NCBI RefSeq assembly: GCF_003324165.1
Contig: NW_025407837.1
Span: 248,001-312,000 of the forward strand
Length of the DNA: 64,000 nucleotides
DNA from: Naegleria lovaniensis
Taxonomy: Eukaryota; Heterolobosea; Eutetramitea; Acrasida; Naegleriidae
Reading direction: 5' to 3'
Positions 29,808 to 35,083 of this stretch are shown one piece after another. A program made the translations under genes and the position numbers. The notes under the pieces were generated by a model that worked only from the letters and a program-made list of their open reading frames with translations, was not told the origin of the DNA and searched no databases. Numbering within the stretch: the stretch's first letter is position 1; every line of letters begins with the position of its first letter.

Positions 29808-30441
29808 TGTAGTATCTCAATGATGAAAAGAATATTGTTGTATTTGTTGATGATTAGTAAAGTCGGCATGCAGTAACGATATCGTTCGGATCCGAACGTG
29901 GAATTGTTGTTGAGAGTTGCCACTTGTCAAGGATTTTTGTGGACTCAGACGCACCAAACAACTTTTTAGCGCTTGCAAAATCCTTTAGATCATGCCACCA
30001 GTTCTAGAAGGCATGCCATTTGTGCGTTTTCGCATCAAGAAAAGAAACCTGCGGCAGTCCCTCGCGTTTGTTTTCGTTTAGGTGTTGCGCCACAGTTATT
30101 TCAAGTAATTCTAAAATTTCCTTCCATTGACCTTTTATATTAATTATTACCCACTCGAAAGGAATGAAAAAGTTGTAAAACGGGTCGGACTCGGTGTACG
30201 GTTGCATGAATATTCATGTACACAACCCACTACAGTATTTACTGCAACAATAAGGAAGTAGGGTAATCCGTACGCGTACATTCAACTCAAGGGCACTACA
30301 CAATGAACATGTGAGAGTCAAAGGCCCACGTTTAAATGTCACGAACAAGTTTCGTCTTGTGTGTTGAAAGTGTTACATACTTTTCATCAAATTCCATGAA
30401 TTATCAATTTTCAACAACTGCCACTAATCAAACTCAAAAAA
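29808..30441. other. divergent spacer with palindromes
   Basis: A 634-bp spacer between the RGS gene and the glycine-rich gene. It contains two overlapping perfect palindromes at 29875-29898 and a 14-bp palindrome at 30205-30218. A minus-strand frame of 67 codons (30004-30207) is open but lacks an A-run start and a recognisable family, so I do not call it a gene. Confidence 0.5.
29875..29898. promoter_or_regulatory. two overlapping perfect palindromes (12 and 16 bp)
   Basis: AACGATATCGTT at 29875-29886 and CGTTCGGATCCGAACG at 29883-29898 share four bases, giving AACG/CGTT half-sites in alternating orientation. They are about 70 bp upstream of the RGS start. AACG is a common Myb core, so a dimeric regulator site is possible; that is inference. 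Confidence 0.4.
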
Positions 30442-33400
30442 ATGGATTTACGTGTAGTGATTGATAAAAGTGGTCGGAAAGGACAGGACGGACCTTGTGG
30501 CGAGTATGTGTTGATGTAATCATCATTACAATTTTTTAATCAAAGCAAATTGTGAATAGAAATGGAATGGCAGGAAGTTGTGGAACTGTAAGTGTGATAA
30601 TCTCACCATGAAATTTAAGTCATATCATTTCGGATAAAGAATGGTATTCAAGGGATTAATGGAAATTACGGAGGTAATGATGGAACATTGGGAGGTAATG
30701 GAGGTGTGTGAATAATTTTTCAATTTTTTTGCAAATCTTTTTTCGGATTTCTTAACTATTAGGTCATGGCTCACATGCAACCAATGGAACGAAGGGATTG
30801 CATGGAGAGAATGGATCTCATGGAAGTGACATTCATATTGTGTTAGATTATTTTTCACCGACGCACATGACGCTTTGTGACGTCAATAATTTAAATTTTC
30901 AAAACAATCAAATAGTTCCAATGAAAGATGGGTCTGTAGTGCTCATCTCACGAGGTGGAGATGGTGGAAAGGGTGGAGAGTAAGTATATGATGACTTGAT
31001 CATTATGTTTTTTACATGACTTGGAATTCAAAGTGGTGGAGAGTAAGTGAAATTTTATTCAATGAGTGTATTAAGGAATATACAATGTACAATCTTGGAA
31101 TCTTAATGTAGTGGTGGAAAAGGAGGTGATGGTGGATGGTAAGTGTAGCTTATTCATTGTCATTTAATTTGGAAATTATTATTAAATAATTATCGTGTAT
31201 AATTAATGCTAAAAATACAACAGTGGTGGTCAAGGAGGAGATGGTGGTCCAGGATTGAATGGAAAACCAGGAGAACATGGAGCAAAGTAAGTATGATTCA
31301 TATTCATCATTCTCATTCATACTCATCGACCAAATAGTGGTGGAAGGTTTGTAACTATTTGAAATGTCATTTTCACACACTTTCAATTTCATAACACTTG
31401 TGAAATGAACATGTTGAATAATGATCATCAATGACTCTTAAACTTTACAGAGGAGGAGAGTAAGTATCCTTTAGAATTATAAATTTCATTGGAATGAATA
31501 TATTTGTTCAAATAGTGGTGGCAAGTAAGTACTGTCTATTAAGGCACTTGAAAATGTTTGAACAATATCTAAATTAATAATTATACATCAATCACAAGTG
31601 GTGGAAAGTAAGTATCTTAGCATACGTTTTAAACAAAACTCGAATAATCCATCGTTGATGTGCACAGTGGGGGCTCAGGTGGCGAGTAGGTACAATGATT
31701 TCATTCACAAACAAGTGTGTGACTATTAATGACTAACATGTTATTTACAATTTGTGTGACTATTAATTTGCATTGTTAAAAATGTAGTGCTGGAGATGGA
31801 GGAAAGTAAGTATCATATATATAATTCCAAAATGAACCATTCATTCTTTCAGTGGAGGTATGTTTATCAAAAGAATGTGACCTCATGATTCACACACCAA
31901 AATATATTTTTCATCCATTCACACCCTATCATCATCATCAGGCTGTGGAGGAAATGGAGGAAATATTATCATTGATACTCGAAATCCCTATCTCTTAAAA
32001 TTTGTATCTGCCTCAACTGAACCAGGAATGGGTGGTAAGGGTGGAAGGGGAGGTGAATTTGGTCGACCAGGATTTGGAGGAAGGTGAGTTTAGGTGTGTT
32101 CCATGTACAATAATAATCATAATTTTTTCAATTCACTTCGTTGTACCATCCATTGAATGATCCATCATTATTGGAATACTACTACTAGACCTGGAAATGG
32201 AGGAAATGGAGGAATGGGAGGTATGGCAGGTCCACAACTGGTCTATCAGGCACCACCTGGACATTCACAACCCAAACCACCACAATTATCGAATGGACAG
32301 AGAGGACCTAATGGAAATATGGGACTTGCAGGATATAATGGAGCACCTGGAAGAAGGTATGTGTGTGAATATTTGTTATTGAATTTTTTGTTATTGAATT
32401 TTAACCAATGTCTGATGATATTATTGTGTGTAAATGAAAAATGTTAATGATATTCAACTATATTTGGAATTTATTGAAATGGAATGAACATGATGAATTA
32501 TCATAGTGGATTACATGGAGTGGATGGTCTCGATGGTCACATGGGATCTGTCATGTTTCGAGTGTTGGATGCAAATAATCAAATTCTTGAACAATCTTCC
32601 ACTTGTTATTCACTCAAAGTGAAATCTTTTTCCTTACAAGTCCTTCGAGAGGAACAAGAAGAAGATGATGGAGTGTTAGAACCTGGTGAATTGGTATGCT
32701 TTAAGAATATCATACTCACGAATGAAGGAGGATTGACCTTACCTGTTGGAACTGTTATAACCATACCTGATCATCATTCGAAAGAGATTTCTTTCCTGTC
32801 GAATCATGTTTCATATATTTTAAATGTACCATTAAGACCCTACGAGGATTTTATCATTCCAGACCGTGTTGGATTTGGAGGTCAAATTTCAGAAAGAAAA
32901 AGTGCTATACTTGTTGGAGATACCTTCTCATCAAAACTCGGTATTGAAATTTGTTCGGAATTGAGTGGATCGAAATTTGAAGCATGTTGTCAGAAGCAGA
33001 ATTATCAAGTTCAGTATCCTGTGTGTTTTGAATTAATGTCAGCAACAGGAACGATTGGAAAGAAGGAATTGGCTACAGTGATTGTGACGATACGAAATGT
33101 GTCAACTGTCATGGCTTATGGAATTCAAAGTGGAACTGATGGATCAAAGCGAAGAGTAGCAATACAAATGGAGTTTGATCCAAGACTAATTTTACACAAG
33201 AATAGTGAAGATTCCATGACCTCTCAATGGATTTCTAATGGAAATTCAGTGTTTGTTGAAAGTAAGTATTCATTACATTCCAATTTCTCTGGACATTGAA
33301 TCCATTGTCATCAGTTCCAAACATTCATCCATCCGATTCATTCACACAAGTCTTTTTTGTTGAAATGAGTGATCGTATTCAATATTTTGAACATGCCACT

Positions 33401-35083
33401 ATTAAGGCAACTCTTTTATTGAGAAATATTCCTATTGAACAACATGAACGAGCCATTCGTTTCACTCCAACCTATTATCCACCCTCTGCTGGTGAAAATA
33501 ATTTTGATTTAATCTTTTTCACAGATTCCCATTTATCGAGAATTGAATTTTTAACTTATACTCAAGTCTTTGATGGACTCTCACTCTCAGTGAATTATTG
33601 GGACATTGAAAAGTATCATGGAGTTTCATATGTAGATGCATTACCTTCTCATGAAAAGAATTCTCCATTGCAAAGACATTCACCTGCTTCATGGGTCAAT
33701 GATTGTCATGGAAAAGTATTATTATATCCATTAAGACAATATACACAAATGGATGAAATTATTTCAACAAGTTCCTCGTCCCAAATGGATGCTCGAATGG
33801 ATGCTCGTGATATTTTCAAAGCAGTTGCTGGATTTGATATTCTTCCTACCACCACCTCAACATTGATGGGTCATCCACTCAGTTCCACGAGTACGACTAC
33901 GATCAATATATCTGAATCCCTTCTTACAAGTAGTAGCATGGAGAGTCGTTTGGATGGTTCAGTAGCAGCAACAGCAACAACAACCGTAGATTCAACGGAC
34001 CACTCGGAACTGGCACGAACTGATTTTGGAGGATTGATTTTCATTGGAAATGTAGATGCTGTGCAATTTGTACAACGTTTGTATCAGGCATGTCCTTTGA
34101 AAGAAATTCCAGAGAAAGACCTGAGTGAAAATTTAGTGGTTTCGAGTCCTACCTTGGAAATGTTTCAGAAAAAGTATACCGAATTTCACAAAAAGTTGCT
34201 CTCTCAGAAACCAAATGGATATTTCCAATTGTGTAGTAGTGATTTCTCACCAAAACCAAAACAAGGTGTGTTTGCAAAAACACTTCTTGGCAAGGGAACC
34301 TATAAGGAGATTCCACTCTCAGTCACAGATCCAATCCTTGCCATTACGACCATGAGTGGAGATGGAACAAACTTTCTCTCATCTGATTCACAAGTGAATT
34401 TCAACTCGACGCAATTTGAAGCTGGATCGAATATGGGAAGACTAGTGAACGCCATATTATGTTCATTACCCATTTCCAAGTTATTTTCCATTCTGAAAAA
34501 TCCAACTCAATGGCTAAAAGCACTCATAGTTGTTACTGAAATAGAAGGAACTCGACAATCCATGAGATATGTTCATGCATTGATTTGGGCCATCTATTTC
34601 AAATTATATCATGCTGTAGTGTTTAATGAGAATTTACATTGGCTATGTAATTTTATTTTGGATGAGTTTGAAAAGAATGCATCCACTTATAAGGTTCACC
34701 CAGAGAGAGATGTTTTGTGTGAAACTATTGTCATGGCATTGGCGGATTTAGAAAGAAAAATCAAATGGAAACAATCCTTGTTTTCCAAGTCGATTGAGCA
34801 AAAACAAGTCTATGACAAGTTCAAAGCAAGTCTTGAAAATTTGATCTATCAAAAGGTGATTGTTGATACCAAAACTTCGACAGCCATTAAGAAGTCAGTG
34901 AAGAAACGAATCAAACACATGGATGTCAATTATTTCTCTTTTCATATCAAGTGGATCACTCGATTGATGGTGAATGGAGGTGGTCTTCAATTTGAAAATG
35001 AACGATTATTGACGGATAAGAGTACAAAATCAACCTTTAGCTCCAAATCAGAGGACGATCAATCTGAATATTTATGGCAGTAG
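30442..35083 (+). CDS. glycine-rich (Gly-Gly-X) protein encoded by 18 exons with a micro-exon array
   Basis: Exons: 30442-30503, 30560-30587, 30640-30703, 30763-30979, 31034-31042, 31112-31138, 31224-31286, 31338-31346, 31451-31459, 31516-31524, 31599-31607, 31668-31685, 31788-31805, 31853-31857, 31942-32083, 32189-32356, 32507-33261, 33315-35083. The sum is 3381 nt, 1126 residues, in frame throughout. The first 285 residues are collagen-like or Gly-Gly-X-rich with a short non-glycine insert. Residues about 290-540 look like beta-sandwich modules (D-D-G-V-L-E-P-G-E, then I-I-L-T-N-E-G-G). The last 590 residues, with a Ser/Thr-rich stretch, are a helical region that I do not recognise. No clear signal peptide or membrane segment. 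Function unknown; filament-forming or scaffold roles are speculation. Confidence 0.75.
31034..31857 (+). repeat. array of ten tiny exons encoding Gly-Gly-X units
   Basis: Ten exons of 9, 27, 63, 9, 9, 9, 9, 18, 18 and 5 nt are separated by introns of 47-104 nt. All but the last are multiples of 9 and begin and end in phase 2. The 9-nt ones read T-GGT-GGR-RR or A-GGA-GGA-GA. Donors are mostly GTAAGT placed directly after GGA-[GA]A. Each unit can be removed or added with no frame change. Confidence 0.7.

Follow-up and report, generated by a model that had tools for sequence, protein, structure and literature searches.

Within a gene for a collagen-like protein in the window (the whole 64,000-nt stretch of Naegleria lovaniensis DNA that was analysed), a tract of 81 residues, mostly Gly-Gly-X, appears to be divided among a run of very small exons, four consecutive ones being exactly 9 nt long. 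We consider it likely that this is an old micro-exon run, created by recurrent intron gain in a tract of fixed length, with its exons included constitutively and spliced by intron definition. Recounted from the sequence, the gene has 18 exons and a CDS of 3381 nt encoding 1126 aa; the exon sizes, phases and 18-exon sum given in the initial annotation proved exact to the base, and the joined frame holds no internal stop. Exons 5–13 measure 9, 27, 63, 9, 9, 9, 9, 18 and 18 nt, every one starting and ending in phase 2, and are followed by exon 14 with just 5 nt (Table 1). All 17 introns are 47–150 nt long. The description of the units as coding for Gly-Gly-X holds for most of them, the exceptions being exon 7, whose last four triplets are Gly-X-Y of a different type, and exon 13, which begins with Ala.

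Table 1. Features of the micro-exon gene, in window coordinates.
Feature	Position	Strand	Phase	Remarks
Gene	30442..35083	+		Collagen-like N-terminal part, Gly-Gly-X tract, DUF7932, long C-terminal part without Pfam match
81-aa tract, genomic span	30954..31982	+		243 coding nt in 1029 bases; 11 introns inside
Exon 4, 217 nt	30763..30979	+		Tract starts in its 3' end
Exon 5, 9 nt, TGGTGGAGA	31034..31042	+	2-2	3' intron position common to both array paralogs
Exon 6, 27 nt	31112..31138	+	2-2	
Exon 7, 63 nt	31224..31286	+	2-2	Includes Gly-X-Y triplets other than Gly-Gly-X
Exon 8, 9 nt	31338..31346	+	2-2	Opens the series of four consecutive 9-nt exons
Exon 9, 9 nt	31451..31459	+	2-2	Both boundaries in both array paralogs
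Exon 10, 9 nt	31516..31524	+	2-2	Both boundaries in both array paralogs
Exon 11, 9 nt	31599..31607	+	2-2	Both boundaries in both array paralogs
Exon 12, 18 nt	31668..31685	+	2-2	Both boundaries in both array paralogs
Exon 13, 18 nt	31788..31805	+	2-2	Both boundaries in both array paralogs
Exon 14, 5 nt	31853..31857	+	2-1	Less secure than the 9-nt exons
Ten tract introns I4–I13, 47–104 nt	30980..31852	+	2	In-frame stop on retention in 10/10
DUF7932 domain (PF25560), aa 335–456	32652..33017	+		Profile match

Relatives were sought in the organism's own genome (30.69 Mb, 97 contigs) with a protein search and a DUF7932 search, and at least seven were found. Two of these, L021 (contig C50) and L022 (C8), contain comparable arrays, of 90-9-9-9-9-18-18 nt and 72-27-9-9-9-18-18 nt, respectively, in gene models that are the output of our own decoder (described below). 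Their identity is 37% with the window protein and 62% with each other, counted downstream from where the tract ends. The series 9-9-9-18-18 is common to all three genes. With tract residues numbered from 0, the introns of the window gene lie at residues 8, 11, 20, 41, 44, 47, 50, 53, 59 and 65 (all phase 2) and 67 (phase 1), those of L021 at 11, 41, 44, 47, 50, 53, 59 and 65, and those of L022 at 11, 35, 44, 47, 50, 53, 59 and 65. Thus all eight tract introns of L021 and seven of the eight of L022 interrupt the same codon in the same phase as an intron of the window gene, and seven positions are common to all three. Over 24 equivalent sites, the hypergeometric probability of such coincidence is 6e-5 for the window gene and L021, 0.0023 for the window gene and L022, and 1.8e-4 for L021 and L022. 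Exon 8 has both boundaries in common with L021 and only the 3' boundary with L022; the intron after exon 14 (31858–31941) has no counterpart in the three other tracts of 81 residues.

Since two paralogs with only 37% identity to the window protein have introns at the same codons and in the same phase, the micro-exons are, to judge from this comparison, very probably real and older than the duplications that separated the window gene from its two array paralogs. The proposal that tiny exons coding mostly for Gly-Gly-X lie between full introns is thereby not only supported but strengthened. The other relatives are built differently: the tract of L023 has three introns (residues 17, 55 and 61), none of them at an array position or in common with the window gene or L021; that of L025 has no introns and a different length; and L034 and L035 have no comparable tract. 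An 18-nt exon peculiar to L023 is predicted at L023:2112-2129, in phase 1-1 and preceded by a 46-nt intron, and small exons may have arisen in this gene too, elsewhere in the repeat. Beyond the organism's own genome, pattern searches gave 430 matches in the genome_contigs set and 22 in the viral_contigs set; none was confirmed as a relative, tblastn having been run on the 430.

The length of the tract, counted from the first Gly-Gly to a conserved NPxLLKF, is 81 aa in the window gene, in L021, in L022 and also in L023, which has no array. As the array-less gene has a tract of equal length, the array did not lengthen it. Counting against an exactly fixed length, a measurement begun at the closest anchor beyond the glycine tract gives 91 aa for the window gene and 94 aa for L021, L022 and L023; the discrepancy arises before the first Gly-Gly. 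The second point to note is the placement of the introns within the repeat. Among the 44 introns of the three array genes, 34 are in phase 2, and 26 of those 34 lie at (A/G)(A/G)|TGG, within the X codon just before Gly. If introns occupy only one place in a repeat that recurs every 9 nt, the exons between them are bound to measure 9, 18, 27 nt and so on, so that neither the exon sizes nor the frame neutrality needs a separate explanation.

The array may then have arisen as follows. A glycine tract held at 81 residues and coded by a 9-nt repeat would have gained introns repeatedly at the same place of the repeat, between the second and third bases of the X codon and mostly at (A/G)(A/G)|TGG. 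Where adjacent repeats both received an intron, a 9-nt exon would result; where one or two sites stayed empty, the exon would be 18 or 27 nt. At least seven introns would have been present before the window gene and the two array paralogs split. Each short GT-AG intron would be recognised as a whole, its donor being GTAAGT where the exon before it ends in A, and the inclusion of every unit would keep the tract constant. We infer gain rather than loss, although the present sample of genes fits gain in the array genes and loss in L023 alike, and although the array genes form a single clade in the tree with weak support (64/55); both points count against this reading.

The splice sites and introns of the tract are consistent with intron definition. 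In the three array genes, GTAAGT is the donor of 20 of the 23 tract introns, against 29 of 66 other donors, a set that includes unverified introns (p = 0.0005). The last exon base is G at 2 of the 23 tract donors and at 37 of the 66 others, and the GTAAGT bias looks like compensation for a weaker exon end. Two observations count against such compensation: the total U1 match of the tract donors is hardly higher (7.70 versus 7.45 of 11), and outside the tract the association of A at -1 with GTAAGT is not significant (9/14 versus 13/37, p = 0.11). All 23 tract introns of the three genes would introduce an in-frame stop if retained. In L021, introns that directly follow an exon no longer than 18 nt measure 49–71 nt and the seven others 136–286 nt (p = 0.0012); the same contrast is absent in the window gene (p = 0.56) and in L022 (p = 0.55). 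For plant micro-exons, the available part of PMC8831610 describes the flanking introns as probably removed one after another, and recursive splicing under intron definition has been put forward for an Arabidopsis exon of one nucleotide (PMC4674806, likewise from the part available). Consecutive 9-nt exons probe the minimum size of an exon whose neighbours are also tiny, and favour intron definition and stepwise removal. As a separate observation, the introns outside the L021 array, at 136–286 nt, exceed in length the introns of the window gene and L022 (43–150 nt), and the second intron of L021 (1862–2027) contains a 47-nt tandem repeat in two copies with 97% match.

Why the introns should have been kept is a further question, and one answer is compatible with recurrent gain: introns that break up a 9-nt coding repeat prone to slip or recombine might be retained because they stabilise its length. 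The spliced tracts of the three array genes are indeed tandem repeats according to TRF (best scores 132, 173 and 174; periods 27, 9 and 45), the genomic tracts of the window gene and L022 give no TRF repeat, and the spliced tract of the array-less L023 has none either, as if its codons had diverged instead. On the other side, the intron-free tract of L025 is also a 9-nt TRF repeat (score 66) and differs in tract length, and genomic arrays remain in L021, some of them inside its 90-nt exon. We regard this explanation as possible but doubtful. The same tentative standing applies to the fullest version of the argument, in which a fixed collagen-like tract was cut triplet by triplet through successive gains at one site, the introns were kept because they stabilise the repeat, and the four 9-nt exons are joined constitutively by intron definition. 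If true, it would provide a natural counter-example to the growth of collagens by exon amplification and an instance in which introns safeguard a coding repeat. Three array paralogs, one array-less relative of equal length and one intron-free tract offer a ready comparison for studying intron gain in coding repeats.

It was originally suggested that the array grew by duplication of exon–intron units, that is, by tandem copying of one 9-nt exon together with its intron. Several of the 9-nt exons differ little or not at all (TGGTGGAGA), and all are in a single phase, as such copying would leave them. An alignment of the ten tract introns had been proposed as a check on shared ancestry, and the introns turned out to be no more alike than control introns: the mean z within the three tracts was 0.56, 0.52 and -0.04, and between matching positions 0.84, -0.58 and 0.06, against 0.89 and 0.57 in two controls. 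The top intron pair of the window tract (w5-w12, z = 4.4) lies close to the top control pairs (4.2 and 3.8). A recent exon–intron duplication was accordingly rejected. Any duplication would have to have happened before the array genes diverged, and in the array-less relative the tract is equally 81 residues long. A variant in which an older duplication was followed by intron loss in L023 may be considered; overall we think copying of exon–intron units unlikely. With positions kept and sequences lost, the introns look old.

A further proposal was that any unit could be skipped and that regulated skipping varies the length of the tract; the symmetric 9-nt exons would then be cassette exons, tuning the glycine tract as in the micro-exon genes of flatworms. 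Exons 5–13 all being in phase 2-2, each can be left out singly without creating a stop. For combinations the claim needs correction: 480 of the 512 are open and 32 give a stop, all of the latter dropping exons 7 and 8 whilst keeping 6 and 9. In this part of the gene (31112–31459) the TG that ends exon 6 would be joined to the A that starts exon 9, forming a stop codon and so limiting combined skipping. Loss of exon 14 shifts the frame. RNA-seq of Naegleria gruberi shows both exon skipping and intron retention, and retention is commoner than skipping in all species studied but one, as far as the available part of PMC6142364 goes. We found no evidence for regulated length variation. The frame neutrality is a consequence of the repeat geometry, and the equal length of the tract in four genes, together with the 9-9-9-18-18 series kept in three, speaks for constitutive inclusion. 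An equal tract length with and without the array argues against both length tuning and duplication, though not finally, as L023 may have lost introns and skipping may take place in RNA. Length tuning thus appears improbable, and constitutive inclusion of every unit remains the reading that we prefer.

The exon models themselves were examined with a Viterbi decoder that combines codon usage, donor and acceptor matrices and intron length, imposes no minimum exon size and is given the start and the stop. A first version, with six training introns and empty exons allowed, merged exons 11 and 12, turned exon 14 into an empty exon and overran the stop; the decoder was then altered by forbidding empty exons, supplying the stop and adding training introns. 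In this form, with training introns derived from open frames and not from RNA, and with open frames built into the decoder, it returned 18 of the 18 exons of the window gene. It did so again in nine of nine settings whose training held no intron of the window gene (three training sets, one of them from other genes of the window only and one without the family, combined with three intron-opening values). A ban on internal exons shorter than 12 nt was costly in all three array genes, with a drop in score of 25 nats for the window gene, 24 for L021 and 18 for L022. The start of L022 is unsure, and some training sets altered one or two exons of L021 or L022, never the 9-nt ones. In L024, as a comparison by eye showed, the decoder chose an incorrect acceptor within the glycine-coding region and translated some of that region in the wrong frame; we therefore base no conclusion on that gene.

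When the region 31295–31925 was shuffled with its dinucleotides preserved (n = 150), 145 shuffles yielded no 9-nt exon apart from exon 5, which lies outside the shuffled region, and five yielded one more, compared with four more in the real sequence. With extra exons of 12 nt or less of other sizes included, 61 shuffles had one and 13 had two (74/150), against five in the real sequence. Four 9-nt exons in this region are far from chance. Since the decoder does invent short exons in shuffled sequence, more confidence can be placed in the 9-nt exons than in the lone 5-nt exon 14. Thus, although the exon models are drawn from sequence and the decoder adds one or two exons of up to 12 nt to about half of the shuffled tracts, an artefact, with the tract in reality spliced as fewer longer exons or as a single large intron, is very improbable in view of the cost of a 12-nt minimum in each of three genes, the limit of one additional 9-nt exon per shuffle, the identical boundaries in three diverged genes and the confinement to these genes of a splice-bounded 9-mer.

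This 9-mer, AGNGGNGGNRAGTAAGT, a pattern modelled on these very exons, has 11 matches in the 30.69 Mb (11 forward and 0 reverse, with 0 for the reversed-pattern control and ∼0.2 expected), and all 11 fall in the window gene, L021 and L022. A genome-wide class of such micro-exons was also considered and rejected, the splice-bounded Gly-Gly-X 9-mer being confined to the three genes. An 18-nt variant of the strict pattern, with a badly chosen spacing, gave 0 matches and 1 control match. A search free of exon content, for a GTAAGT intron, a 9-nt exon and a further GTAAGT, gave 14 matches: eight in the three genes, one in L023 that is not a predicted 9-nt exon, and five elsewhere. At a 10-nt spacing there were nine, of which two lay in the three genes (both within 18-nt exons) and seven elsewhere. 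The reversed-pattern controls of these content-free searches gave more matches (54 and 56; 71 and 59), and the searches consequently carry little weight alone.

Runs of small exons are known from the micro-exon genes (MEGs) of flatworms such as Schistosoma, Echinococcus and Hymenolepis, which resemble the window gene in having long runs of small exons divisible by three. An operational definition, as worded in the available part of PMC7653826, sets three thresholds: the gene has seven or more exons, no fewer than half are micro-exons (length <70 nt and a multiple of three), and four or more of these follow one another. By these measures the window gene qualifies, with micro-exons making up exactly half of its exons (9 of 18) and a run of nine, as does L021 (8 of 14, run of six); L022, with 6 of 15 and a run of six, falls under half. 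In Schistosoma mansoni, MEG products are secreted, introns are between 100 and nearly 5000 bp in length, exons mostly have 15 bp, and the production of protein variants through micro-exon skipping is a trait of the Schistosoma superfamily (PMC10526429, in the part available). In contrast, the window protein has no hydrophobic N-terminus (a 15-residue maximum of 0.08, from hydropathy only and not from a signal-peptide predictor), the tract introns are only 47–104 nt long and the exons follow a 9-nt repeat. As the window gene has neither a hydrophobic N-terminus nor long introns, we describe it, from its structure, as built like a MEG rather than as a member of that group.

Micro-exons of plants, among them the 9-nt one in potato invertase, are likewise very small and conserved in position and phase (PMC8831610). 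In the available part of that source, however, they occur as single micro-exons or adjacent pairs, with tags of at most five exons, whereas the window gene has four 9-nt and two 18-nt exons in succession within a coding repeat. Very small exons are often missed or misannotated in plants, according to PMC8831610, and proteins of the present kind may therefore be wrong in public databases. Among open-licence papers, a search for Naegleria under the spelling 'microexon' gave no account, and one for runs of micro-exons gave no comparable 9-nt array in the parts of the papers available.

The exons of fibrillar collagen genes start with a whole Gly codon. The array exons of the window gene, at 9–63 nt, are in phase 2 and none is 54 nt long. 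In fibrillar collagen genes Gly-X-Y repeats are commonly coded by exons of 54 bp (PMC5395295, citing Yamada 1980, in the part available); the likeness is thus one of Gly-X-Y coding repeats cut into exons sized in multiples of 9. The difference is that a 54-bp exon holds six triplets, whereas the smallest exons of the window gene hold one, with phase 2 in the X codon.

DUF7932 is a domain of unknown function. In the window protein, in which N-terminal Gly-X-Y triplets are followed by the mostly Gly-Gly-X tract, DUF7932 and a long C-terminal part, this domain (PF25560) scores 37 bits against a cut-off of 27, and the Pfam Collagen profile (PF01391) stays below its own cut-off (20.7 versus 27.2 bits). 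A search of open-licence papers that required a further term besides the name found, among the papers listed, no account of DUF7932 gene structure. The C-terminal part from exon 18 (33315–35083) has counterparts in the paralogs and no Pfam or NCBIfam match; NCBIfam likewise had no match for exon 17. Compared with solved structures, exon 17 came closest to glutathione transferases (E = 0.04) and exon 18 reached no better than E = 0.23; both results were taken as chance. Rfam had no match in 30400–33400, and the 64-kb window contains no predicted tRNA. In the organism's own genome, eight places lie above the DUF7932 cut-off, two of them only just or jointly with neighbours. Two larger DUF7932 relatives, L034 (G000 C86:4000-13000) and L035 (G000 C17:55000-64000), on contigs of 22 kb and 689 kb, are nearly identical, and the pair has the appearance of a haplotype left uncollapsed or of a segment copied recently.
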